Source: Gordius sp. MW1
Taxonomy: Eukaryota; Nematomorpha; Gordioida; Gordea; Gordiidae
Direction: 5' to 3'
Length of the DNA stretch: 64,000 nucleotides
NCBI GenBank assembly: GCA_964036665.1
Contig: OZ038531.1
Location: forward strand, 15,872,168-15,936,167
A program made the translations under genes and the position numbers. Positions 12,493-53,360 of the stretch are shown here, one piece after another. The number at the start of each line of letters is the position of its first letter. The first letter of the stretch is position 1. The notes below the pieces were generated by a model. That model worked only from the letters and a program-made list of their open reading frames with translations, ran no database searches and was not told the origin of the DNA.

Positions 12493-13529
12493 ATGTTTTT
12501 AATATTGACTTTTTATTTCATGATACCTAGTTCGAATGCCTTAATAATACCGGGTAAGATATTAAATATAGTTTAAAATTTAAATGCCATTATAGCAACA
12601 AGGCAGGCTAATCTTTCTTCATTCTCCACAAATTTTACCTTTAACAATTGGAGCTGCCTTAATTATACCTTTAACTGGACATTACCCTCGCAAACGAATT
12701 ATTCCAAATTAATCGTATTGCACAAAGTTTCCAACGCGACATTTCAACAAGTTCTAACACAAAATGTAAAAAATAATATAATTTAAAATGAAAATTTTTG
12801 TTATCAACGTTTGAATTAACAAAATACTAAAACAAAAATATAATTATTTAGTTCAATAACACCATTCAATCCAATTACACTACGGCATTCAATAGTACAA
12901 TCTATAAGACTTCATACAATACCACCTTCAATCGTTCTGGTTTTTACTATGCAATCTTGGTACCCCAAGGGTTGATTGGTCAAGTCTTGAATTTCACCAT
13001 AGGTTAAATTATACCCATAACTAAATTTATCCTATAATTTTATGCGCTAATTTAAAATGTGAATTACCGTTAGGAATAAAATTTAAGATAAAGCACATTG
13101 ATTATATTTAACTTTCCATGTTTTAAACATTCCTAAGTGATTATATTTTAATTTCCATGTTTTTAAATATTCCAAAGTTATTCTTTATAAACATAAAGGA
13201 ATTTTTTATTGTTTATTATATAAGGATGTGGGATATGTTTGACAACAAATTCCTCCACATACGACAACACTTCAAACTGTCCTTTAATGGAAAATGCTAA
13301 TGGAGAATGCGTCATTAACATGACCAGCAGTGGACCGATAAAATTAACACCGCGAGATGAGAATAACAAATTGAAAATGACGACCGAAATTAATGGGAGA
13401 TGGATAAACACACTTGGAAGGGGAAATTATTCGACATTTAAATATAAAAAAATTAGAAATTTAGTAAAATACAGATTAATTAGAGCAAAAGACTTGATAT
13501 CAAACATTATGTCATTGCTAAATTTATGA
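12493..13529 (+). CDS. Secreted sequon-rich protein, paralog 1 (novel family)
   Basis: Four exons: 12493-12553, 12596-12765, 12852-13002, 13225-13529, all with GT-AG introns (42, 86, 222 nt) in phases 1, 0, 1, giving 228 aa. Residues 1-20 are a signal peptide (MFLILTFYFMIPSSNALIIP). Exon 2 encodes NFTFNNWSCLNYTFNWT and LIVLHKVSNATFQ. Exon 3 encodes a Thr/Asn-rich stretch ending GFYYAILVPQGLIGQ and VLNFTI. Exon 4 has a Cys cluster (GCGICLTTNSS, SNCPLMENANGECV) and a basic tail. More than 15 N-X-S/T sequons indicate an extracellular glycoprotein. AATAAA lies at 13607. Exons 1 and 2 have the same lengths (61 and 170 nt) as in the gene at 14170. I do not recognise the family; no function is assigned. 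Confidence 0.8.
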
Positions 13530-14169: not shown

Positions 14170-15224
14170 ATGTTATTTTTAACTACCATAATTTGCTTAG
14201 TTTTAAGCACACGCGCCACACCTTTAGCCGGTAATCAAAATTTGAATATTATTTAATTTTGTAACTCTTACCAGACGCCATACCTAGAGATTCAAGTGAA
14301 GAGAACATTAATTTTACGGTCACCAAACGTAGTTGTTTGAACCACACCTTCAATTGGACTCGTCCCGCATCAGTGAAGTCTTATGATTTTTTGGTTTTGC
14401 AAAAGGCTGCAAACACTACTTTCCACCATATTTATGAAAAGAAGGTTAAGATTTAAAAATTCTATCACAATATAAATATCTCACCACTTTTTTAAATTGA
14501 ATGTGATTTTATGTTCGATGATATAAAAATCTATTCGTTTACCAAATTATATTTGAAAATGTTCTTTCGTTATATAGTTTCATAAAAACAATACTAAGCC
14601 CCTTAATGCTCATTTCACAAATGCTGGAAGTTACCTTGTGATCCTGGCCCCTAAAGGACTACCTGGGCAGCATTTGAACATAACGATCGGTAAGTTATTT
14701 AATCTTAATAAACATAGGGTGATGTTTATTCTAATATCAATTATTTAAATTAATTAACAGGATATTAATAAACAATATGAAGAAATTAATAAAAAAGGGA
14801 AATCGGTGTGTTTTTTCATTAATATAGTAGAGAATTGCTAATATTAAACAACATTGTTTTATTAAGTTTCGTTTAAAACGACATTTTAAATAATATTATA
14901 GGCGAAGGTGTATGCGGCGTTAATGAGACTAATACCGGAGAATATAATAACTGCCTACTGACCGAAACTGACAAGGGTGAATGTGTACCAGTTGATCATA
15001 GTCCTGAAAAATCGCAAGAAAATAATGGAGAGCCAAGGGACGAAGCAAATGAAAATGGTGAGGAAGACTATCATGACGATAAGAACGTTAGCCATGAATA
15101 TGATTCTGAATTTTCAACCGAAATTACTACAAGTCCAACAAATAGCATTCCTCTTAATGCTACTACCCAATCTAGCACTTTGAGCGAGGAGTCTAGCGAA
15201 AATCAGGCTACAACCACAATATAA
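14170..15224 (+). CDS. Secreted sequon-rich protein, paralog 2 (novel family)
   Basis: Four exons: 14170-14230, 14275-14444, 14578-14689, 14902-15224, with introns of 44, 133 and 212 nt in phases 1, 0, 1, giving 221 aa. Signal peptide MLFLTTIICLVLSTRATPLA. Exon 2: KRSCLNHTFNWTRP and YDFLVLQKAANTTFHHIYE. Exon 3: NAHFTNAGSYLVILAPKGLP then GQHLNITI. Exon 4: GVCGVNETNTGEYNNC and KGECVPV, followed by a long acidic, Ser/Thr-rich tail. Four cysteines (SC, VC, NC, EC) are shared with paralog 1 and could form two disulfides. AATAAA at 15317 is a likely polyadenylation signal. The C-terminal tails differ completely between the paralogs (acidic here, basic in paralog 1), so the conserved unit is the exon 2-3 domain plus the Cys cluster. 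Confidence 0.82.
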
Positions 15225-20430: not shown

Positions 20431-21734
20431 ATGGCGAGTGGTGCAATTAAAAAGAAAAAAGATTTTTCCATCGATAATATATTAAATTTTAAAGAACGAA
20501 AGATAAACGCTACTTTAGAAAAATATTCTGGACCAATCCATAATTCAAACCACGACAGCGCCAAACATATATACGGTAAGAAACTTCATTCATTATTCAC
20601 ATTGCATTTTAGAGTGGAAATCATTTTAAACAAAATAGACACGTTTTATAATAATTTGAATAAAAAACAAACTATGAAAAATATTGTAAATTTTAACTTA
20701 TTTTTTTAAAATAAAATATAAAATTTAATTTTTACTAGATTTTAATATACATTTGGGGCAAAATACACATCCCGACCTCACTTACAACAGCATCCATTCA
20801 AAATTAGCTTATTTTAATGGCGGGAATTTCTTGTCTAATAATCAATTTTCAACAAAAACTTCGGACCCCTTTATGGTTAGTAACGTCGATTATTCAGGAT
20901 TACTCATGAAGAGGCGTCAAAGAATTTTGTTTACACAAGGACAAATCAAGGAATTAGAAAAGAATTTTATGAAAAAAAATTACCTTACATCCCACGAACG
21001 CGAAAAGCTGGCCAAATCAGTTAAATTAACCACCACCCAAGTGAAAATATGGTAAGTTTGGATTTACTGATTTAATTGTATAAAATATTTTTAATAATTT
21101 CTGCTCACATAAATAAATTATTAATAAAAAATAATAAAATTGTAACTAAAAGACAAATGGAAAAAATTAGAAAATATAGTTATAGTCTTTTTTTGAATAT
21201 AATTTATTTGATAGTTTTACAACATGAAAATGATTAAATAGGTTCCAAAACAGAAGGTACAAGTGCAAAAAGTCCCAGAATCCAATTCCTGAACCAACGG
21301 CGATAGAGTATAATTTAAAGGCAGAGGATGGTAAAAGCAAAGAAAACGTAAACCAAAAAACAGACCGAGATCCTGAAAAAATGGACGTGACAGATTTGCG
21401 CAACTTTAACTACCAAAACCATGAAAAACAAGGTGTACTCAAAAAAAATTTCAGAGATTATATGCATTCAAAAGATCGCAAAATTGGTAGAGAATTCAAA
21501 TTATGCAAAAAGCTTAGATACTCAAAGATAAATCCAAGCTCTAGTAAACAGGAACAAGATTTAAATAGAACCAATTTTAATTGGTTAACATCGTACAAAA
21601 GATTAATTAATATGACTGCAAATCCTGAGGTCATGAAAAATCTACCCTTCAATCCATCCATTTATTACCCCCAATATCCAATTTCCATGTTATCTCCTTG
21701 GGCTTTTCACCATCTTAACACTAAAACAATTTAA
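20431..21734 (+). CDS. NK-class homeobox transcription factor (NK2/NK4, tinman/Nkx2-5-like)
   Basis: Three exons: 20431-20575, 20739-21051, 21242-21734 (introns 163 and 190 nt), 316 aa. Residues 11-19 (DFSIDNILN) resemble the TN repressor motif of NK proteins. The homeodomain spans residues 106-165: KRRQRILFTQGQIKELEKN, then YLTSHEREKLAKSVKL, then TTTQVKIWFQNRRYKCKK. Tyr54 is the NK-2 class hallmark that specifies an unusual DNA core, and QNRRYKC is typical of the Nkx2-3/2-5/tinman group. The second intron splits the codon of Trp48 (TG|G). No NK2-specific domain is visible after the homeodomain; the tail is Lys/Asn-rich and ends in a Pro/Tyr/Trp-containing stretch. AATAAA at 21789. The homeodomain is unusually diverged for this otherwise conserved class. 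Expected nuclear, sequence-specific regulator; mesodermal role is inference from family only. Confidence 0.88.
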
Positions 21735-23782: not shown

Positions 23783-25542
23783 ACTCGGGCCTTCGGCCCT
23801 CGTGGGAAGGGGGAGAAGGGAATAGGAAGAGGGGAAGGGAAGGGGGGACGACTCATCTGTACTTCGTATAAATGTATCATATTTGCTATGCAATTTAAGG
23901 GCGAGAAAGGTGGGAAGGGGCGAGAATGCTTATAGGGGGGTATTAAATGCCTAATGATTAATTAATTATTTATACAAATTTTCCATTATAGGCAAAATGT
24001 AATATAGGCAAGGGTTAGGGTTAAATTTAGTGTTTGCATCTAGTTGCGTATAACATTAGTTTTTATGGCCTTTAGTGATTATGGGTCTAACAAACATTAT
24101 ATTATAAAACAACACAATGAATTTGCAGAATTGTTGGGAGAAATTTTTTGTTGAATTTGAACAATTTTTAATTAAAAAAATCAAAAATTTGGCCAATGGT
24201 CACTTTTTCTCTATTGGACAGTACCAGCAGATACTCTATAAGTCAATGATAGCCAAAAAAACGGAAAAAAAAATTTTGATGCTCACTTTGGCCAATGGTC
24301 CTTTTTTTCCATTGGTCAGCAGCCAGCACACGGTAAAAATGGATATAAATTCATAAGAGTAAAAAAAACGAAAAAAAAATTTTCGAATCACATTTTGGCC
24401 AATGGTCATTTTTTTCCATTGGTCAGCAGCCAGGACACGGTAAAAGTGGATATAAATTCATAATAGTCAAAAAAAAAAAACGAAAAAATGTTTTCGAATC
24501 ACATTTTGGCCAATGGTCATTTTATTCCATTGGTCAGCAGCCAGCGGACGGCCAAAAAGTCATAATAGCAATGGTAGGAACAGGAACAATCATAATAGTC
24601 AAAAAAAAACGAAAAAATAATTTCGATTCACATTTTGGCCAATGGTCATTTTTTCCATCGGTCAGGAGCCAGCGGACGGCCAAAAAGTCATAATAGCAAT
24701 GGTAGTAACAGGAACAATCATAATAGTCAAAAAAAAAACGAAAAAATAAACTCGGATTCACATTTTGGCCAATGGTCATTTTTTTCATTGGTCAGCAGCC
24801 AACGGACGGCCAAAAAGTCTTATTATCAATGATAGTAACAAGAACAATCATAAGAGTCAAAAAAACTCCGGGATTCTAACCCAAAAACTAGTTAAATTGC
24901 ATAGCAATTAAAAGTAAACAACTTTTATTTATGTTTATTATATAACATTGGTCAGCAGCCAGCGGACGGCCAAAAAGTCATAATAGCAATGGTAGAAACA
25001 GGAACAATCATAATAGTCAAAAAAAACGAAAAAAATAATTTCGATTCACATTTTGGCCAATGGTCATTTTTTTCATTGGTCAGCAGCCAGCGGACGGCCA
25101 AAAATTCTTATTATCAATGATAGTAACAAGAACAATCATAAGAGTCAAAAAAAACTCCGGGATTCTAACCCCAAAACTAGTTAAATTGCATAGCAATTAA
25201 AAAGTAAACAACTTTTATTTATGTTTATTATATAACTAGTTAAATTGCATAGCATTAAGAGTAAACAACTTTTATCTATGTTTATTATATAATAGATAAT
25301 TTAACAAATCTTATATATAACACACCGAGGGAGATAGAGATGAGGGGTGGGGCACCTCTTATGCATTAATTTAAAAAATAACACAGCGAGGGAGATAGAG
25401 ATGAGGGGTGGGGCACCTCTTTCTCATGCATTAATTTAAAAAAGCGATAACCTAATATACCCAATGCAAATAGATAGGGAGGGTAACGGACGACGGACGG
25501 ACGGACACCAAAAAACGCGCCCATAAATTGCATAGCAATTAA
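23783..25542 (+). repeat. Composite dispersed element, long copy (HINE/DINE-like candidate)
   Basis: Starts ACTCGGGCCTTCGGCCCTCG (a perfect short hairpin, GGGCC-TTC-GGCCC). It continues with a G/A-rich tract and ATATTTGCTATGCAATTTA. Then come tandem ~130-bp units (24180-24870, 24945-25170) and GGGAGATAGAGATGAGGGG repeats. It ends with a GACGGAC tract and the near-palindrome AATTGCATAGCAATT. The tandem units contain the inverted motif CCAATGG...CCATTGG and GCCAGCGGACGGCCAAAAAG. A 5' hairpin, internal tandem repeats and 3' hairpin without terminal inverted repeats resemble Helentron-associated non-autonomous elements. That class assignment is inference. Confidence 0.6.
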
Positions 25543-25647: not shown

Positions 25648-28361
25648 CTCGGGCCTTCGGCCCTCGTGGGAAGGGGGAGAAGGGAAGGGGAGTAGGGGAA
25701 GGGAAGAGGGGAAGGGGGAACTCTTCTATACTCCGTATAAACGTAGCATATTTGCTATGCAATTTATGGGCGAGAAAGGTGGGAAGGGGCGAGAATGCCT
25801 ATAGGGGGTATTAGATGCAAAATAATTAGTTAATTAGTTATAGGCCCTTGTAGGGGAGGACATAGGGTAATTATCAATGTTAACCAATTCAAAAACGAAA
25901 AAAAATTTCGATTTATTTGGCCAAGGGTCATTTTTTTATTGGTCAGTAGCCAGCGGACGGTCAAAAATTCATATTATCATTGGTACTAACATGAACAAAT
26001 ATTAATTTAATTTAAAAAAATTAAAAAAAAAATTTGTCCCCTCCCTGACTTGAACCCCACACCTCCAGTTCACAAGCCGGCGCTATAACCACTATACCAT
26101 GCTGGCTTTAAAATAGTAGAAGTTATTATGTTATTTATATAGATGATGAAATAATAAAGTTGTGTTTTATGTTTAGAAAATCAATATATTTCGTCGGTCA
26201 GTAGCCAGCGGACGGTCAAAAAGTCATATTATCAGGTATTAACAAAAACAAAATATTAATTTAATGTAAAAAAAAAATTAAAAAAAAAGTTTTTTTTTAG
26301 TTTTAAAAAAGGGCTAAATTCTTAAACTACTAGCCCGATTCGCTCGAAACTTTACCCGTAGGTGCCCAGGGCGGCCGGGGGTAAAATAACCTTTTCAGAT
26401 TCCTAAAATACCTTTTCATTTTAAAAATATCGGACATTTCCCTGCCACACGTGCGGTGTAATATCTATGACACGTAGAAAAATTTTACTAATTATATAAA
26501 CTTACGCGCGCCATCTAATAAAGTACAATTCGTGTTTGAGTTTAATAGTAGATTCAATTTAATTAGAAATAACGGGCTATGCTTATACCTTTGAAGGAGG
26601 TTTCGAATTTTGCGTTAGTTTCTATCGATATATTTTATCGTAAATTAGAATCTAATACCTATATTATTTTTTTAAATATTACTTTTTAGGTTTTCTATGA
26701 AATCACAATCTAATTAAATGAAATATATTAACCCAATAAAAAAATATATATGCATTTATAAGGTTAAAAATATATATTACATAGTTGGCTGTCTGTTAGA
26801 CCATCTATAATAAATTTTTAGGTTATATATAAAATTTGGCCAATGGTCATTTTTTTTCATTGGTAAGCAGCCAGGACACGGTAAAAGTGGATATAAATTC
26901 ATGAGTCAAAAAAAAACGAAAAAAAAAATTTTCGAATCACATTTTGGCCAATGGTCATTTTTTCCATCGGTCAGGAGCCAGCGGACGGCCAAAAAGTCAT
27001 AATAGCAATGGTAGTAACAGGAACAATCATAATAGTCAAAAAAAAACGAAAAAATAAACTCGGATTCACATTTTGGCCAATGGTCATTTTTTTCCATTGG
27101 TCAGCAGCCAGCACACGGTAAAAGTGGATATAAATTCACAAGAGTAAAAAAAACGGAAAAAAAAATTTTCGAATCACATTTTGGCCAATGGTCATTTTTT
27201 TCCATTGGTCAGCAGCCAGGACACAATAAAAGTGGATATAAATTCATAATAGTCAAAAAAAAACGAAAAAAAAGTTTTCGAATCACATTTGGGCCAATGG
27301 TCATTTTATTCCATTGGTCAGCAGCCAGCGGACGGCCAAAAAGTCATAATAGCAATGGTAGGAACAGGAACAATCATAATAGTCAAAAAAAACGAAAAAA
27401 ATAATTTCGATTCACATTTTGGCCAATGGTCATTTTTTTCCATCGGTCAGGAGCCAGCGGACGGCCAAAAAGTCATAATAGCAATGGTAGTAACAGGAAC
27501 AATCATAATAGTCAAAAAAAACGAAAAAATAAACTCGGATTCACATTTTGGCCAATGGTCATTTTTTTCATTGGTCAGCAGCCAACGGACGGCCAAAAAG
27601 TCTTATTATCAATGATAGTAACAAGAACAATCATAAAAGTCAAAAAAAACTCCGGGATTCTAACCCAAAAACTAGTTAAATTGCATAGCAATTAAAAGTA
27701 AACAACTTTTATTTATGTTTATTATATAACATTGGTCAGCAGCCAGCGGACGGCCAAAAAGTCATAATAGCAATGGTAGAAACAGGAACAATCATAATGG
27801 TCAAAAAAAACGAAAAAAATAATTTCGATTCACATTTTGGCCAATGGTCATTTTTTTCATTGGTCAGCAGCCAGCGGACGGCCAAAAATTCTTATTATCA
27901 ATGATAGTAACAAGAACAATCATAAGAGTCAAAAAAAACTCCGGGATTCCAACCCCAAAACTAGTTAAATTGCATAGCAATTAAAAAGTAAACAACTTTT
28001 ATTTATGTTTATTTATAACTAGTTAAATTGCATAGCATTATAACAAAAACTAGTTAAATTGCATAGCAATTAAAAGTAAACAACTTTTATTTATGTTTAT
28101 TATATAATAGATAATTTAACAAATCTTATATTATAACACACCGAGGGAGATAGAGATGAGGGGTGGGGCACCTCTTATGCATTAATTTAAAAAATAACAC
28201 AGCGAGGGAGATAGAGATGAGGGGTGGGGCAACTCTTTCTCATGCATTAATTTAAAAAAGCGATAACCTAATATACCCAATGCAAATAGATAGGGAGGGT
28301 AACGGACGACGGACGGACGACGGACACCAAAAAACGAGCCCATAAATTGCATAGCAATTAA
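25648..28361 (+). repeat. Composite dispersed element, second long copy in tandem
   Basis: Same 5' hairpin (25648) and same 3' end (28361) as 23783-25542. Contains more ~130-bp tandem units (26830-27690, 27730-28000), a tRNA-like segment (26041-26107), and about 500 bp of unrelated AT-rich sequence (26300-26830). The block 24520-25310 is nearly repeated at 27290-28135, so the pair probably arose by segmental duplication. Confidence 0.6.
26036..26107 (-). repeat. tRNA-derived (His-like) SINE head
   Basis: Minus strand reads GCCAGCATGGTATAGTGGTT (A box), an anticodon-like loop TTGTGAA flanked by CCGGC/CTGG, and GGGTTCAAGTC (B box). This is followed by the same T-rich body and GACCGTCCGCTGGCTACTGACC seen in the tandem units. 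The T-arm does not pair properly, so it is a SINE head, not a working tRNA. Confidence 0.6.
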
Positions 28362-44081: not shown

Positions 44082-45250
44082 TTAATATCTAATTAATAAA
44101 AGTTGGTTACTAAAAACAAAAATTGTAAAATATAAACTTTGAGGAAATAAACTCGGTTCAATCTTTAAATCACTGATATTTTCAGGAATGTATTGAAGCA
44201 AAATAGTTGGTGGATAACACAATAAAGTTATAATGGAATTAATTGATACACAACTATTATCCTCTTTTATTGATATAGATGTTGGGCTCATAATGTCTTC
44301 ATATTTGACTTCAATTTTTTTGGATTGTACTATTAACTTTTTTAAATCAGCCAAATAATTATTGTCTTTCTTTAATTTTTGTTTTTTAATTTTTCTCTTT
44401 GCTTGTAAAGAATTCAGGTCGATCTGTAAAACTATATTATGAAAAATTGAATTGCTATGTAACTGCTTTAACAATAATTCCGCAAGTTAATTGAAATAAA
44501 TTAAATTGTATAGATGAGTTTGATAACATTTTTTGTTTATTGTGTTTAATTTGAGGGTCCCAAAATCTTTCCTATTTTAATTAATAATTGTACATAAATT
44601 ATATACCTTCAACCATTGCAAAGCATAATTTACACCTAGCTTCAAAGAAGAAAGAGGAGGAACTTGTCCATGAGTTGCATCATGCCTTAAATTGATAATC
44701 CATTCAGGTATATTCAAAAAATTGGCAATTTTATTAATAGGACTCGTATCTGAAGCCAAATTGTTTAGATTCATATAATAATCATGATTTTTTTGCCTTT
44801 TGTTTCTAGGTAACAGATTATTAGATTACTAGTAGTTTATACTTAAGGTTTGTAGCATGCGATATATTTTTCTTATCAATTTTCCCCCTATCATTAGATT
44901 GATTTGCTGATTCAATAATTAAATTGACAAACCTGATAAACTTCAATCTAAAAGGTTATGCAAAGTTACCTAACAATTGCCATCGAATGCAAATATAACG
45001 ATTGATTATAGTCGGTTTTGTTATTTGAAAAATTGTTATTTTCATACATTATAGGAATAAGTAAATCTGCAGTGGCTAAAATAGCTAATGGCAGTCGACT
45101 AATGTCGCTAAAATGAATTTAGTTATGACGTGGATGTCATTACTTTTCCTTCCATATAATTATGCTATTCAAGGCATCATTTTGTAGAACATAAGAGTCT
45201 GAAAATATTCCCGCATACAAATGTTCAATTGGGATTTCAAATCGATTCAT
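44082..45250 (-). CDS. LAS1-like ribosome biogenesis protein
   Basis: Five exons on minus: 45250-45144, 45098-44970, 44932-44843, 44805-44607, 44423-44082 (introns 45, 37, 37 and 183 nt), 288 aa as read. Las1 N-terminal (HEPN) features in order: IEHLYAGIFSDSYVLQNDAL, WKENRLPLAILATADLLIP, RFVNLIIESANQ, then the catalytic-type RHxxxH block LNIPEWIINLRHDATHGQVP and LSSLKLGVNYALQWLK. The last exon is Lys-rich (KRKIKKQKLKK) and may instead splice onward, since Las1 proteins are usually longer. LAS1 cleaves the ITS2 spacer of pre-rRNA in the nucleolus with the kinase Grc3/Nol9. Start chosen as the only ATG in frame in exon 1. Family call rests on the HEPN motif and order. Confidence 0.78.
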
Positions 45251-45419
45251 GCCCAAAAGAACAACCGAAAGAAGAAAAACTGAATGTATGAAACTAATGT
45301 ATGATTTGATTGAAAAAAAATTTACACATAGAATATAATGTATAAAATTTAGAAATCAAAGAATAGTTTATACCTGATTTTAATAAAATACGTATAAGTA
45401 ACTATATATAAATTAAATG

Positions 45420-46080
45420 AAGTGGTATATAAAAACACATTCAAAATTAATAAAAAGGTGGTTTATGAAGTTGAGTATTCAGGCAATCGAATGATATAAA
45501 GTTTAAGGTTATCAATTGCTATGAAATTAAATACAAAATGTGTTAGAAATTATGTTAAATAGTGTAACATAGATATATATAAATAAAAAAGTGGTTTATG
45601 AACTTAAGTTAAATTCGATGTTATAGTGTAAGTTATTATAACATAGGCATATACAAATAAAAAACGTGCTTTCCGAACTTAAGTAGACAGTGCGATATAT
45701 AATCTGATAATATGAAATCAATTGCTAATGTGAAGGATTGTATAAAATTAGATACAAAATGTGTTAACCTAATACTTAATAAAATTATGTTAAATGTTAT
45801 AGTGTAACTTACTGTTAAAAAAGTTGTATATGAACTTAAGTATACAGTAAAATTTGATGATATGAAATCAATTGCTACTGTCTAGGATTTTATCAAGTTA
45901 AATGCAAAATGCGTTAACCTAATACTTAAATTTATGTTAAATATTATAGTGTAACTTAGTGTAACATAGGTATATATAAATAAAATAAGTGGTTTATGAA
46001 CTTAAGTATACAATGCTATATATAATCTGATGATATAAAATCAACTGTTGATATGAAGGATTTTATAAGATTAAGTCTAT
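45420..46080. repeat. Degenerate tandem repeat, ~200-bp unit
   Basis: Recurring blocks GTGGTTTATGAACTTAAGT, ATAATCTGATGATATGAAATC and ATGTTAAATGTTATAGTGTAA, about three units. No coding. Confidence 0.65.
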
Positions 46081-46189
46081 TGTCAAAAAGGACCAAAAGA
46101 GAAAGAGAAATTCAGTCATCTACGCGGTTCCGCCATTTTATCCGCCATCGTCCGCGTTTAAAAAATGTTTTCGAAGGCCTGAACCTAAC

Positions 46190-46950
46190 TCATTTCTAAC
46201 AAATCGGTTTTATATTTAGTTCTAACCTTGAGCTACCTAAAAATAATAATTTTATGGAATAAAGTGGTTTTGGATATCTAAATCGCCATAATGTTAAAAA
46301 ACGAGGGAATATAAAAAAATTTCAAAAGCTAATTAAACTAAAAGTTGTGGACCAAAACTGAATATAGTTGTTTTAAAGTGTTGAAAACGTTAAGGACTAA
46401 TTTTTATACCAACTTGGTGGAATATGAATTAGTTTTGGATGTTGAAATAGCCATTTTTATCCATCTTAATGCTATAAAACCAAGGAATTTCGACTTTTAA
46501 AAGCTAATAAAATTAAAATTTCTGGACCAAAACTGAATATTTTTGTTTTAAGGTGTGGAGAACGTTAAGGACTAACTTTTATAACATTTTGGTGGAATAT
46601 TAATTAGTTTCGGATATTTAAATGGCCAATATATATAAAACCTAATGCTAAAAAAACGAGGGTATTTAAAATTTGAAAAGCTAATAAAACTAGAGTTTTT
46701 GAACCAAAACTGAATATATTCGTTTTAAAGTATTGAGAACGTTAAGGACTAATTTTTATACCAATTTAGTGGAATATGAAGTAGTTTTGGATGTTGAAAT
46801 GGCCATTTTTATCATCTTAATGCTAAAAAACCAAGGAATTTCGACTTTTAAAAGCTAATAAAATTAAAATTTATGGACCAAAACTGAAAATTTTTCTTTT
46901 AAAGTGTTGATAAAGTTAAGGACTCACTTTAACGAACTTTTGGGTCGCTA
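46190..46950. repeat. Tandem repeat, ~175-bp unit, four copies
   Basis: The marker GGACCAAAACTGAATAT recurs near 46349, 46523, 46701 and 46875 (spacing 174-178). Each is followed by GAACGTTAAGGACTAATTTT and GTGGAATATGAATTAGTTTT. Not coding; satellite-like. Confidence 0.8.
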
Positions 46951-47627
46951 AAATTTACCGGAAATAATACACTAGCGAATAAAACCGCTAAAAGTATATG
47001 TCAAAATTTAAAGTTAATTACGTTATATTAATTAGGATTACTTACATTTGTTTCGGAATCAATTTTTAAAAAGTAGTTATTTAGCATCCTTAGACCCACC
47101 CAAGTTCGTATTGAAATTTATATCATATCTTCCGCCATCTTGGATAGCTAGAAATTCTATTTCCGGTCGTCCGCCATCTTGGATTTTTTTTCCAAACCCA
47201 TTTAAAACTTGTTACAACCTAATAAATAAATGTAAATTAGTAGAATATAACCATTTTAAGTTCATTTTGTATGATTTTCACTATATATTTAAAATATTAT
47301 GTGAAAATAGTCTCGTCAACTAAGCTTAAAATAATAAATTTCTATTTTCTCGTCAACTATGCCTTTACGTCGAAATACTCCAATCACTTAAGTTCAAATT
47401 TATAATTTAAATGCTAAAATGCATATCGTCAACTGTACTTTCTCATATTTCAATTTTCTTTTATTGGATTTTATCCAATTTAATTTGCATTAATTAAAGC
47501 TCCAATATTAAATAATTTAAATATTAGCTAAATCTAGTAATCCTATTTTACATTTAAATAACACATCTTAAAAATGCTAAAAACAATTTTGCGAATTTTA
47601 TTTAAATCATATCGCAAAATTTTTTTA
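46951..47627. other. AT-rich stretch
   Basis: Two CCGCCATCTTGGAT copies (about 47131-47144, 47170-47183) and a related CCGCCATTTTATCCGCCATC at 46131 suggest repeat sequence. No gene seen. Confidence 0.35.
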
Positions 47628-50557
47628 TTACAATACGGGTGATGCGCGATGCGATTGTAACAACATATATTTTGATATTTCATCTAAATATTCAAACAAT
47701 TCGATTTCATTTACAAGGTATAAATCACGCAAGCGATTTATATTAGAATTTATACTATGGTATTTTCTATTCACAGAGAACACTTGCTTTCCCTGTGTGA
47801 TTTGTAATAAATTAATATCACATTTAGATTGAAGACTAATTAAACAATAAACGAACTCATAGATCGTTGGGTGAGCGTGGCCCACTAGGATTTTTAGGCT
47901 GTTGTGGTAGCCTTCTAAGTGATTATTAGTTCTCGGGCCGGTAGCATCAATCCTCTTCCATATTGGATAAGGGAAATTTGCGGAGGGCATGATCCAAGTT
48001 GTGTGAATATAATCGAAAAAATCCTTCATGTTATTGTTCGATAAGACTAATGGATCATTCCTAAATAGGTCAAAAATTCTCCTCATATCATGTTCCCTCA
48101 AGAATGGAAGAGCTAAGGATCTCCTCACCAACTTTCTAAAATATGTATCATGATCGTATTGGGATCGAATACCCTCGATCCCAAGTCTCCTAAAGATTGC
48201 TTGCGAATAGTGGAACAAACACTTAAGGACTGAGCCAAAGCAACGCTTGGCCGGGCACAGCTAGTATTATATAAAAGACATTTACCTTTAACATTCACAC
48301 CAGGAAAGCATTGGCGTAACGCTCGCATACTTGCCCTCTCATAATCGACTTGAACATATTCTGGGTTTAAAACCAAATTATGTTGAGAACAAATCTCTTT
48401 CAATTTGCTGAACATCATATAATAAGTCGCATAAGTCTTATTAGGTAGTAAAGCATATACCACAGGAAGCATATGATTCCGATAGTATGTGTGTATTGTA
48501 TACACCTAAAATTCGGAATAACTATTGTAATGATTAGTTTACCTGACTAAATAAGGGCGGACATACATAAAAAGTCCCATCGGAGTATAAATTGCCCGCA
48601 GAACACAAGATTTTCAACAGCGTGGGTGTCCCGAATATCAACCGGCGGTTCCTCCAGTTCCAGAGCAAAAATTGTTCACCTTTGTCAGTAACACAATGCT
48701 CTGGCTCCAAAGAAATCTCCTCATTTTTTTCGGGAGCCTTCACACGTTTAGGATGGACTCTTCTCATTGTTTTCTTGATTGACTTGAAGGTTGGGGTGGC
48801 CTTCGGATATCTATCCAAGTCCGGGACATCCCGGAGCCTTTGAGCAATAACTCTATGATAAATTTTACTCAATTGCTCCTTGGGCTCTTCAAGAACAGCC
48901 CGTTTCAAATCCCTTAGAGTAATCAGATACTCGTAATCGTCTCTTGGTTCTTCATGGTTGTGACCATAGCTTGCTTGTGGAAAAGCTGTAATTTTAGCTT
49001 TCCCGGGGCACCCTTTATCCCTGCACCGGTAATATGTAGAAGACCCTTTTCTTGTTATCTTTTGGTATAAATAACCTTCAAAGTATAATAAATAGCCATT
49101 CTTTTGCGAAGGTAGAAACTGCATAACTAGAAATAAATAGTTTTAAAATTTATATTAAATACCTGAATGGTTTTGTATATTTTGTAATGCATCAACCATT
49201 AATTGTGCATCTAGGTGACCACCTTTAAAATGTATTATATAATTAGGTTAGATGTAAATTTTACTGCCAAGGGAAGAATCGTTATTTGACATGGAATATG
49301 CATTTATTGGGGCAGCACTTTGTGTAATAATCGTTGTATGACCTATTGAAAATAAAAAGTAAAAAATTAGCAAACTTAAACATAAAATTACTTGGAAGCA
49401 TGTTTATAGTTGAAGATAATGCTCCAGCAGAGAGACTAGTTGAAATATAAGCTAAAGTAAAAAATTAAAAAACATAAACATAAATTTACTTGGTAATATA
49501 TTTGTCATTGAGGATAATGCTCTAGAAGACAGACGAGAGCTTGAAATATGAACTAAAGTAAAAAATTAAAAAACTTAAACATAAAATTACTTGGAAGCAT
49601 GTTTATAGTTGAAGATAATGCTCCAGCAGAGAGACTAGTTGAAATATAAGCTAAAGTAAAAAATTAAAAAACTTAAACATAAAATTACTGGGAAGCATGT
49701 TTATAGTTGAAGACAATGCTCCAAGTTGAAATATAAGCTAAAGTAAAAATTAAAAAACTTAAACATAAAATTACTGGGAAGCAAGTTTATAGTTGAAGAT
49801 AATGCTCCAGCAGAGAGACTAGTTGAAATATAAGCTAAAGTAAAAAATTAAAAAACTTAAACATAAAATTACTGGGAAGCATGTTTATAGTTGAAGACAA
49901 TGCTCCAGCAGAGAGACTAGTTGAAATATAAGCTAAAGTAAAAAATTATAAAACTTAAACATAAAATTACTGGGAAGCATGTTTATAGTTGAAGACAGTG
50001 CTCCAGCAGAGAGACTAGAACGTGAAATATGAGCTAAAGAAGTTCTGAAGTTCTCAAAATTAAGGACTATAAAACATTTTAAATTGATATAATTAACAAG
50101 AAAATTCACCTCAAATATTTGAAGATGATGTTACGATTGAATTTGTCACATTTACTATTATAAAGATTAAAAAAAACACATAAATTTACTTTCATTGGAA
50201 GGAATGGAAGAAGTTAAGATTGCACTTGTTACATTTACTACTAAACTTGGAATCTTAATTGCTTGTGTTAAGCCATCTATAAAATAGATATATAAAATTA
50301 AGGACTATAAAACATTATACTTTTATGTGGTATATCTAAATGTTCTTTGGTAACAAAATACGTGGTCCCAAACTTGATTGCTCTCCCTGTACAATGTGAA
50401 TTACGGCATCTAAGGTATATTTGAGAATTTTTTCCTTCATTGTATTTAACGTAAGAAAAATTTTCATAAAAAAAAAGTTCTTTCTTCCTCTGAGTCAACA
50501 TACCTATAATAAAAATATTAAAAAACATAATTTTAAATATACTTGTTTGACGAAATG
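47628..50557 (-). CDS. FLYWCH/MULE transposase-like gene with duplicated mini-exons
   Basis: Minus-strand exon chain. Possible 15-nt exon 50557-50543; FLYWCH-1 50503-50321 (FFYENFSYVKYNEGKNSQIY, RCRNSHCTGRAIKFG, HLDIPH). Then 50276-50190; 50154-50110 (contains TGA); seven mini-exons 50033-49392; 49342-49265; 49222-49163; FLYWCH-2 plus transposase start 49126-48543 (GYLLYFEGYLYQKITRKGSS, YYRCRDKGCPGKAKI, GHNHEE); 48505-48286; 48229-47628. The MULE core shows AGNLYSDGTFYVCPP (Asp), VYTIHTYYRNHMLPVVYALL, PEYVQVDYERASMRAL (Asp), CLFHYSQAIFRRLGIEG and NNHLEGYHN (Glu). Every intron before the 49126-48543 exon is phase 1 and most are 35-44 nt. Possible lesions: the TGA, and one 49-nt mini-exon. It may be a transposon gene or a domesticated one; no element ends found. 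Confidence 0.72.
48219..48285 (+). mobile_element. Short Helitron 3'-end fragment inside the MULE transposase
   Basis: 48219-48264 reads CACTTAAGGACTGAGCCAAA then GCAACGCTTGGCCGGGCACA and GCTAG, followed by T. It matches, nearly base for base, the reverse complement of the Helitron 2 3' end at 60654-60704. It lies between VNVK and CLFHYSQ of the transposase. The minus strand offers G|GTAAAT (48285) and GGCTCAG| (48230), a 56-nt intron that would restore frame. Confidence 0.75.
49392..50033 (-). repeat. Array of seven tandemly duplicated 60-nt exons
   Basis: Units of about 98 bp, each a 60- or 63-nt exon bounded by AG and GT: 50033-49971, 49932-49873, 49834-49775, 49737-49689 (49 nt, frame-breaking), 49650-49591, 49552-49490, 49451-49392. 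Introns of 37-38 nt separate them. All start and end in phase 1. The encoded repeat consensus is TYISTSLSAGALSSTINMLP; variants include HISRSSLSAGALSS and HISSSRLSSRALSSMTNILP. Confidence 0.85.
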
Positions 50558-50622
50558 CTAAATAAAACTATAATTTCAAAAAATTAGTGATGATGAATTA
50601 GTGATGAACTCGTGATATGGTG

Positions 50623-50880
50623 ATGTATGTATGTATGTATGTATGTATGTATGTATGTATGTATGTATGTATGTATGTATGTATGTATGTATGTATGTAT
50701 GTATGTATGTATGTATGTATGTATGTATGTATGTATGTATGTATGTATGTATGTATGTATGTATGTATGTATGTATGTATGTATGTATGTATGTATGTAT
50801 GTATGTATGTATGTATGTATGTATGTATGTATGTATGTATGTATGTATGTATGTATGTATGTATGTATGTATGTATGTAT
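50623..50880. repeat. (ATGT)n microsatellite
   Basis: About 64 uninterrupted ATGT units (258 bp). The long open frames across it in several frames are trivial consequences of the repeat. Confidence 0.98.
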
Positions 50881-52242
50881 GATTGCCGCGAAGACGCCCA
50901 AGAGCTTAGTAAGTGCAAATGGTTTTCCTTTTGTCCGGTAGCCTTTTGACTAAATAGCCCATGGATTCTAATAAAATTCGCTTATTGGTACTTTTAATAA
51001 ACGCAACTAACAGATTAAATTCAGCCATAGACTAATATTTGATATTTTTAGTTTTATATTATCTAATGGCTTTATTTATTAGTGCTAATTTTTAATTTAG
51101 TTTGATACATACATTTAATTGGTCTATAAAGTTTTGTATTCAGCATAATATTAAAATGATTTTGATGTATTTTAAGTCAAGTGTTGCATTAAGGTGAAGA
51201 TGTCATATGGTTAACATACGTGTACCTCTGGAGCAGAATAGCATAAAATCGGATTAAAATCATCCTAAAATGAACAATCAATATTCTAATTCTATCCCGG
51301 CATATCATGTCGTTTAAATTTTATAACGGTATAAATTTGCAACGACTGAGAATACTGAACCATGCATGTGCGTTAAATATTTTGTGATATAGACATTCAT
51401 AATGATAAACATGATACATGCATATTCGAGTGTGTATAAAATTGCAACAATAGGAACAGTAGCGTTGCTAGCCTTTTTGCCTAGGAGGAAGGGCTGAGCT
51501 GGTCAAATAGTGAGGGGACAAAAAATTTTTTTCCTACACACCCTTAAGAATAAAAAATATTTATGTTTTGCCCCCCCCCCAATCCAAAACCCAAATACGA
51601 CCATGGGTTAAATGGAATTGAAAACTTTTTCCCTCATAAACGTTGGACAAACTTTAAATTCCGCTACTACTTTGTGTATTTTTTCTATTCCCCTCATGTT
51701 TATAGGGCATAAAATAAAATTTATTCATAAATAAAACAAAGTGATGTAGTTGAAACAATATAGAAAATTTCACATGGTATAATAATTTTGTATAAATGAA
51801 TTGTAAGGGTACAAAGTGGAACGGGGAGATTGACAAGAAATCTTTGACATTTTAAAAAATAATGCAAATAGTTAAAAAAAAACTATACAACAAAGTTTTT
51901 ATAAAAATATTTTATTGCCACAACCCCAATAATTTAGGCCTTATATAAAAAATTATAAATATACATATGCAATATTGGCAGCATTTATATCAGGAAAACA
52001 ATGAGAACATTTAAAAGCCTTTTTTACATTAGATCCTCAAAGGGCGCAATTATAACATAAAATATAAAAAAAAATTAATTATGTAATTAAAATTAGTAAT
52101 CAGAAGCTATTTCCCCTTGATATTATAGATATATTTGCACAACCCCCCCCCCCCTCACCACCTAAAAATTGAAATGAACTAATAAATTTTACGGCTAAAT
52201 TAACCTTAAAAATATTCTGTCAAAATTAAATGAATCAAAATT
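50881..52242. other. AT-rich stretch with decayed repeat ends
   Basis: 51465-51610 resembles a worn MITE of the GCGTAGCCAGGGGGG type (C run at about 51570-51580). A second C run lies at 52142-52154. No gene recognised. Confidence 0.35.
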
Positions 52243-53360
52243 TTAATTGCTATGCTATTTATGGGCTTGTTTTTTGTTGTCCGTTGTCCGTCCGTTGTCC
52301 GTCCGTCCACCAAGTTATTTTCACCGGCTTTCTGACTTGCAGGTTCGAGTTCAAGCCCAGGAGAGGACAAATTTTTTTTTTAAAATTAAATTATTATTTT
52401 GTTCTTGTTAATACCATTGATAATATGACTTTTTGACCGTCCGCTGGCTCCTGACCAATGAAAAAAATGACCATTGAAATAAATCTATTTTTTTTCCGTT
52501 TTTGAATTGGTATATTAGGTTAACATTGATATTACCCTATGCCTTCCCCTACAAGGGCCTATGCCTCTACTGATATCGGTCCCTGTGCCCCTACAAAAGC
52601 CTATGCCTCTACTGATGTGGATTCGAATCTCGGAGAGGGCAAAATTTTTATTTTTTTTAAAATTAAATTAATATATTGTTCTTGTTAATACCCTTTATAA
52701 TATGACTTTTGACCGTCCGCTGGCTACTGACCAATGAAAAAAATCACTATTGGCCAAATAAATCGAATTTTTTTTCCGTTTTTGAATTGGTATATTAGGT
52801 TAACATTGATAATTACCCTATGCCCTCCCATACAAGGGCCAATGCCTCTACTGATATGGGTCCCTGTGCCCCTACAAAAGCCTATGCCTCTACTGATGTG
52901 GGTTCGAATCCCGGAGAGGCAAAATTTTTATTTTTTTTTAAATTAAATTAATATATTGTTATTGTTAATACCTTGATAATATGGCTTTTTGGCCGTCCGC
53001 TGGCTACTGACTAATGAAAAAATCACCATTGGCCAAATTGTGATTCGAATTTTTTTTCCGTTTTTTTTTCAAATTAATATATTGTCTTTGTTAATAGCAT
53101 TCATAATATGACTTTTTGGCCGCCCGTTGACTACTGACCAATGGAAAAAAAGAACATTGGCCAAAGTGTGAATCAAAATTTTTTTTCGTTTTTTTTGACT
53201 CGTATGTATTTATAGACCGTCTCTTGGTACTGACCAATGGAAAAAATGACCATTGGCCAAATTGTGATTTGAAATTTTTTTTCGTTTTTTTCTCGTCTCT
53301 TATGTATTTATATCCTTTTTGACCGTGTCCTGGCTACTGACCAATGAAAAAAATCTTTAT
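52243..53360 (-). repeat. Composite dispersed element, inverted copy
   Basis: Begins with the TTAATTGCTATGC end motif and the GTCCGTCCGTTGTCCGTCCG tract. Then come tRNA B-box-like sequences (GGTTCGAGTTC about 52343, GATTCGAATCTCGG about 52620, GGTTCGAATCCCGG about 52901). Between them lie tandem units with GACCGTCCGCTGGCTACTGA and CCAATG...CATTGG. Same family as 23783-28361 in opposite orientation; the 5' hairpin end is missing. Confidence 0.6.

Follow-up and report, generated by a model that had tools for sequence, protein, structure and literature searches.

A mini-exon array in a Phantom-type MULE transposase gene of Gordius sp. MW1 probably encodes a length-variable N-terminal arm

Transposases of the Phantom/Muta branch of the MULEs carry a FLYWCH finger and, downstream of it, a MULE domain in a single, intron-containing gene. 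Muta1 of Aedes aegypti has 504 amino acids encoded by two exons, with the finger at residues 24–92 (PMC5225508), and Tm1-A of Meloidogyne has 496 amino acids encoded by seven exons, with the finger at residues 5–66 (PMC3169594). Their target duplications measure 8–10 bp (PMC5225508, PMC3169594, PMC6446971). A minisatellite follows the transposase open reading frame in aphid Phantom and lies in the C-terminal part for Rehavkus (PMC6446971). Here we analyse a Phantom-type element in a stretch of 64,000 nucleotides (the window) from the nematomorph Gordius sp. MW1 (GCA_964036665.1, contig OZ038531.1, positions 15,872,168 to 15,936,167, forward strand). The element resembles the described ones in the order of FLYWCH finger and MULE domain, in having introns and perhaps in its target-site duplication, one relative in the same genome (L016) having a candidate of 9 bp (CGCCAAAGA, recognised by eye). 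It differs in that the core is preceded by a long tandem run of predicted symmetric exons, to which some clades add another FLYWCH finger. The available text of the three papers mentions no exon array before the finger of Muta1, Tm1-A, aphid Phantom or Rehavkus (PMC5225508, PMC3169594, PMC6446971). The FLYWCH–MULE core itself is of the known Phantom type.

Tandem exon duplicates within one gene are familiar from Dscam, where, as far as the sources available to us describe them, the arrays are mutually exclusive. A variable number of repeated exons is included together in EBNA-LP of Epstein-Barr virus. Unlike the present case, neither is a transposase or belongs to a dispersed family with exon numbers that vary from copy to copy. 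The micro-exon genes (MEGs) of schistosomes share with our locus their many short symmetric exons. In the accessible text these are given as 6–36 bp long, with internal duplication in some genes (PMC5825161), or as 3–81 bp with long introns, the products being secreted or membrane-anchored (PMC10526429). Here, in contrast, the exons mostly measure 45–132 nt and the introns 28–47 nt, and the gene is that of a transposase; the locus does not show the MEG pattern of exons mostly 6–36 bp long with long introns. The bicycle effector genes of aphids have many small internal exons starting at codon position 2 (PMC9168663), as the exons do here; unlike our locus they are not transposons, and the part of that paper available to us does not describe arrays of near-identical exons. 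Among the literature matches listed, which comprise titles and opening parts of abstracts and have the original Phantom paper and most subscription papers outside their scope, none describes a transposase gene with exons arrayed in tandem.

Arrays in the window, in close relatives and in other families

The transposase gene and its array lie on the minus strand, and all coordinates are window positions unless a contig is named. Seven 98-bp units occupy 49392–50033, each with AG directly before and GT directly after an exon-like stretch. In gene order these stretches are 63 nt (49971–50033), 60 nt (49873–49932), 60 nt (49775–49834), 49 nt (49689–49737), 60 nt (49591–49650), 63 nt (49490–49552, a diverged unit) and 60 nt long (49392–49451), separated by introns of 37–38 nt. 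Tandem Repeats Finder (TRF) reports period 98, 7.0 copies and a score of 1027. A preliminary description of this DNA had noted seven such units with introns of this length, all in phase 1, and the analysis confirms this observation. Six units are open in phase 1, the remaining one being the 49-nt unit, which breaks the frame; phase 1 is the sole open phase of the reference unit, with stops in the other two. Since 98 is not divisible by three, no single frame can run through the array without splicing.

The flanking exons are phase-1 compatible by our reading of the sequence, in agreement with that description. Upstream lies the first FLYWCH finger exon (50323–50501; MLTQRKKELFFYENF...HLDIPH), with a phase 1 donor read from the sequence and a PF04500 match (region 50501–50325; E 5.7e-05) whose 23.6 bits equal the curated Pfam cut-off exactly. 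It is followed by exon A (50190–50276, 87 nt, phase 1-1), a type tandemly duplicated in several relatives and alternatively readable as a 48-nt exon from an inner acceptor (50237–50190). Comparison with relatives identifies a second A-type exon of 45 nt (50110–50154), which has an in-frame stop in the window copy. Downstream of the array are exon B (49265–49342, 78 nt, phase 1-1; also present in L009–L013, L015 and L020) and, again by comparison with relatives, exon C (49163–49222, 60 nt, phase 1-1, ending in ..DAQLMVDALQNIQNHS); in several other families the last exon before the finger is similar to exon C (DALLLVDATNQM-like, by eye). The core begins with an exon that holds the second FLYWCH finger together with the initial portion of the transposase (48542–49127, to ..SDGTFYVCPPLFSQ; PF04500, E 1.3e-06, 28.8 bits, above cut-off; open stretch 49142–48534). 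The MULE domain exon follows (48286–48505; PF10551, E 8.2e-07, 29.8 bits versus a cut-off of 27.6; open stretch 48505–48125). By Pfam this architecture, a FLYWCH finger and then a MULE domain, fits a Phantom-type MULE. The C-terminal exon (47628–48221, containing NNHLEGYHNSLK) is open to its stop, with an acceptor placed by eye and no Pfam match of its own. Candidate DDE catalytic residues presumably lie, by eye, in SDGTF, VDYERA and NNHLEGYH.

The genome (211.8 Mb in 12 contigs, the window being in contig C5) gave 28 matches to the array as a DNA query, the window's own included and some of them pieces of one place. There were 59 matches to the upstream finger region and at least 152, own included, to the second-finger exon as a protein query. 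We read 17 stretches around the array matches (loci L009–L025). The closest relatives have an identical exon order and differ in the number of units of the 60/63-nt type (R units): 13 in L009, 8 in L010, 9 in L011, 6 in L012, 6 in L013 and 3 in L015, against 7 in the window. Compared pairs among L010, L011, L012, L013 and L015 are ∼ 97–99% identical in their best pieces, and thus unit number (3–9) shifts within a few per cent of divergence. Elsewhere another exon, the A type (45–48 nt), has multiplied: L010, L011 and L012 each have three of it besides a 45-nt neighbour that starts differently, and L016 and L022 have three pairs. The original proposal from the window, that symmetric phase-1 mini-exons were duplicated repeatedly within a transposase gene, is supported, and the comparison of unit number that had been called for reveals strong variation between copies.

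The frame-breaking 49-nt unit and the in-frame stop in 50154–50110, both noted before, are indeed present. The second A-type exon is open in L009, L010–L013, L015 and L018; copies of the A-type exon are both open and stopped in L016, L022 and L023, and L024 is disturbed there. No broken R unit occurs in L010, L012 or L013, and L013 has one A-type unit out of frame. As several relatives keep the A-type exon open and three have no broken R unit, the two lesions are most simply decay of the window copy. The idea that a splicing choice at these places decides protein integrity finds no support and was set aside in favour of decay. The window copy belongs to a large population of Phantom-type (FLYWCH + MULE) transposons and is itself ageing. 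Outside this genome no relative was confirmed in IMG/VR viral contigs (6 pattern matches) or in GTDB (116 pattern matches); these collections are viral and prokaryotic, so their negative says nothing about other animals.

A further 19 loci (L042–L060) were picked by hand from the second-finger-exon matches, spanning 67% down to 41% identity, with their array content unknown at picking. Upstream of the second-finger exon, 13 of them carry an array with four units or more, four (L046, L050, L051 and L052) have short or irregular repeats and two (L054 and L060) have none. Unit sequences differ from family to family, but exon length is usually divisible by three and the phase 1-1. We found exons of 66 nt in L042 and L043 (9 and 8 units), 63 nt in L044, 81 nt in L047 (8 units), 60 nt in L053, 63 nt in L055 (15 units), 81 nt in L056 (16 units), 84/81 nt in L057 and 78 nt in L058 (18 units). 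L048 combines 78-nt exons with 105- and 132-nt versions that differ in 27-nt steps, and L059 has 13 units. L045 (157-bp units, some broken) and L049 (four units with exons of 69–75 nt) barely reach four units. A tree built from 25 rows of the second-finger exon, all of them copies from this genome, has array-bearing loci on every larger branch; of the two loci without an array, L060 is a long lone branch and L054 is sister to the array-bearing L053. Similar unit starts, GTCAA or GTCCACAA, occur in L047, L056, L057 and, with a revised border, L059. At least part of the arrays may thus descend from common exons that were re-amplified, and would not then be wholly separate inventions. A reading in which the units of some families start with G-Q was dropped, the first base of the split codon coming from the preceding exon.

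That the array lies between two FLYWCH fingers, as first described, holds for the window and for loci with an upstream finger, detected by Pfam in the window, L042 and L044, by tblastn in L050–L053, and by eye in L043, L045 (without a Pfam match) and L046. It does not extend to L047, L048 (by eye), L055–L057 and L059, where no upstream finger was seen in the 0.5–1.7 kb read upstream of the array; in L058 the reading covers ∼ 0.1 kb there. What stays constant is therefore the place of the array 5′ of the FLYWCH exon that lies ahead of the MULE domain.

The largest arrays belong to the L047 family, whose second-finger exon occurs without stops in 11 places of equal score. DNA matches of 98–100% identity give 8 and 8 units by full-length match and, from the span divided by ∼ 115 bp, about 14, 15, 34 and 43 units in further copies; the remaining five copies match in part and were left out of these estimates. 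The ∼ 34- and ∼ 43-unit arrays form an inverted pair on contig C8, one in each arm. The figure of 43 is an estimate from span, and direct reading covers 2.1 kb inside this longest array (L061), where each of the 18 units read is an in-frame exon of 81 nt and the introns measure 34–35 nt. FLYWCH–MULE exons often stand in close inverted pairs with their 5′ sides facing, for example C8:35091164(-)/35102441(+) and C7:6435899(-)/6441735(+); among the 144 matches listed, 33 neighbouring pairs lie less than 20 kb apart, 25 head-to-head, 5 tail-to-tail and 3 on the same strand. A ∼ 194-bp piece of the L047 array (query bases 735–929 of L047:600-1950) recurs at 86–87% identity in 13 listed places, possibly as a non-autonomous element or a gene fragment derived from array units.

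Reading frame, splice signals and peptide composition

Units were counted by taking the nearest AG and GT as splice sites, with length unconstrained, in 28 arrays from 37 loci (the 17 array-match stretches L009–L025, the window and the 19 loci L042–L060). L019 (a near twin of L018), L023, L024, L046, L050–L052, L054 and L060 were omitted. The length was a multiple of three in 208 of 244 units, and 204 of these 244 were also open in phase 1, among them 15/15 in L055, 16/16 in L056 and 17/18 in L058. Since the reference exons of the distant families had originally been chosen with a frame requirement, we ran a phase-blind test in which the best splice pair was determined for each tandem-repeat consensus with frame ignored. 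For 10 of 16 unit types the top pair delimits, in at least one array, an exon that is a multiple of three and open in phase 1; such a pair is within 1.5 points of the top for 14/16. On the reverse strands the corresponding numbers are 0/16 and 1/16, and control tandem repeats from outside the linker gave 0/26 strands by either measure. Unit types, not units, are the independent count here, because the units within an array are homogenised. The window holds complex tandem repeats at 24255–25236, 27027–28019 and 52374–53196, with periods of 107–289, which by eye look related; those at 24255–25236 and 27027–28019 served as controls and gave no exon signal. Nor did the subterminal ∼ 175-bp tandem repeats of the element itself (46320–46924, minus strand, 3.5 copies), also used as a control.

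The reference units of 14 types comprise 342 residues with no lysine, 3 glutamates, 2 aspartates and 13 arginines, and 52% of the residues are Ser, Thr, Asn, Gln or Pro. Together Lys, Glu and Asp make up 1.5%, versus a mean of 8.1% for shuffled bases (lowest of 1000 shuffles, 3.9%) and 19.8% for the exon of the second finger. Among units no purifying selection was seen at the level of residues, codon positions 1 and 2 varying about as often as position 3 and the introns: variants per site among units of one array (20 arrays) are 0.119, 0.106 and 0.130 at codon positions 1, 2 and 3 and 0.095 in introns. Frame and composition seem to be kept, the exact sequence hardly so. Such a pattern would be expected of a disordered low-complexity arm.

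The element copy and other features of the window

The element copy spans 45244–50957 on the minus strand, delimited by breakpoints common to other copies; its ends, judged by eye, are near CTATTTAGTC (5′) and at GGGCATGAATC (3′). Their similarity as candidate terminal inverted repeats (score 24) was reached by 103 of 500 shuffles. As the ends do no better than shuffled sequence, we claim no such repeats; ‘None’ is among the values given for Phantom in the accessible part of one survey (PMC6446971). Inspection by eye of the insertion flanks of the window copy did not reveal a target-site duplication. Just inside the 5′ end lies an ATGT microsatellite of ∼ 65 units plus a short flank (50623–50881), which the sister copies L009, L016 and L023 lack.

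Elsewhere, the window contains a homeodomain gene (20729–21734; PF00046, E 2.3e-14), which by eye is of the NK type; its homeodomain is interrupted by an intron of ∼ 180 bp, a length above that of the array introns. Two open stretches, 13224–13529 and 14877–15224, share a similar Cys-containing motif (NCPLMENANGECV / NCLLTETDKGECV) and are perhaps duplicated exons of a host gene. In the genome at large, nuclear COX1 copies resembling that of the mitochondrial contig C12 occur at C8:2829490, C5:673008, C4:356383 and other places, one of them nearly full length. Translated with the invertebrate mitochondrial code, chosen by eye, the COX1 of C12 gives a sensible protein.

Explanations and meaning of the arrays

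We consider it probable that the array is a coding part of the transposase gene and that, once spliced, it encodes a disordered arm of low charge and variable length, which grows as symmetric exons are duplicated. Each unit would be one symmetric phase 1-1 mini-exon with a near-minimal intron. Whole exon–intron units would be duplicated or lost at once, so that the protein changes by blocks of ∼ 15–40 residues and its length can vary without a frame shift. Unequal exchange or slippage on the template would alter copy number, perhaps while the excision gap is being repaired. From the DNA we infer that splicing joins the units into mRNA and that the product functions as a disordered, low-charge, multivalent N-terminal arm rich in Ser, Thr, Asn, Gln and Pro. 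The length and composition of the arm would weigh more than its exact sequence, and it may space the upstream finger, where there is one, from the FLYWCH–MULE core or drive self-association.

Several observations weigh against this interpretation. The splice junctions are predictions from DNA. In the unit count 40 of 244 units fail to be both a multiple of three and open, 29 of these 40 in loci of the window's R type, and 11 further matching pieces without a nearby AG or GT had been dropped before counting. Counting units also overstates the evidence, given that those within an array do not vary independently. For L057 and L059 the exon borders were later revised by eye, and the unit and variant counts use the first models, which have the same phase. 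In the phase-blind test the in-frame pair was not top-scored in L042/L043, L056, L057, L058 and L059, and L046 failed altogether. The intron-like spacers of L059 (C6:18163647) are multiples of three and stop-free, leaving an 893-amino-acid frame through the array; splicing therefore need not occur there, and this array may have escaped the need for it. As for composition, lysine is present in some units outside the reference set (L017). The codon-position rates in the 20 arrays give no sign of residue-level constraint among units, and the pN/pS of 0.49 between related subfamilies, which does speak for the arm, is a weak signal from 12 short, overlapping comparisons (11 of R-type units, one of L042/L043).

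The lack of residue-level constraint among units speaks for neutral expansion, the main rival in our ranking, which we regard as unlikely while taking it seriously. Here the arm would be functionless, and minisatellite-like growth would escape selection at this place because symmetric exons tolerate tandem duplication. Copy number does swing widely between near-identical copies, non-coding tandem repeats also occur in the element, and two sampled relatives (L054 and L060) do without an array; against this, Lys, Glu and Asp in the reference units fall below the shuffled expectation, arrays recur across most sampled clades, and long arrays keep frame and splice sites (L055, L056, L058, and the 18/18 units read in L061). 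If the array were instead an ordinary intronic minisatellite with AG and GT by chance, it would have plenty of company, tandem repeats being common in the window (47 TRF rows). The phase-blind test and its controls, the multiple-of-three lengths and composition, and the equal position in many families despite different unit sequences make that very hard to believe.

The introns bring in another possibility, for which we see a rather small chance: the array may act as a brake or an isoform maker, its tiny introns limiting full transposase, as intron retention does in the P element, or exon skipping giving finger-only and long isoforms. Of 194 array introns of 20–80 nt, just 20 are multiples of three, 12 of the 20 from L059, so retention would usually break the frame, and symmetric exons permit skipping. 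General surveillance of short introns could produce the same deficit, however, and the spacers of L059, being multiples of three, do not fit a brake.

The probable reading, a spliced arm that grows by exon duplication, bears on how such genes can be studied. Exon duplication is usually examined as a rare, old event in a single gene; here it has apparently happened many times, recently and in dispersed copies. Near-identical siblings that differ in exon number make it possible to measure directly how fast and by what mechanism exons duplicate in tandem and how this affects fitness, and they form a natural protein series with varied repeat counts and a similar catalytic core. Symmetric exon phase may be the property that makes repeat growth tolerable. 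The finding suggests, too, that programs for repeat masking would conceal arrays of this kind as satellites. More tentatively, and with less than even confidence, we propose that this transposase branch evolves by modular exon multiplication, each lineage amplifying its own symmetric mini-exon, to about forty copies, into a low-charge multivalent arm whose length is re-set at nearly every move. If this is true, the arms of siblings 1–3% apart can be unequal by as much as hundreds of residues, and arm length would act as an inherited, rapidly mutating dial that tunes how transpososomes assemble, how the protein self-associates or how the element escapes control by its host.

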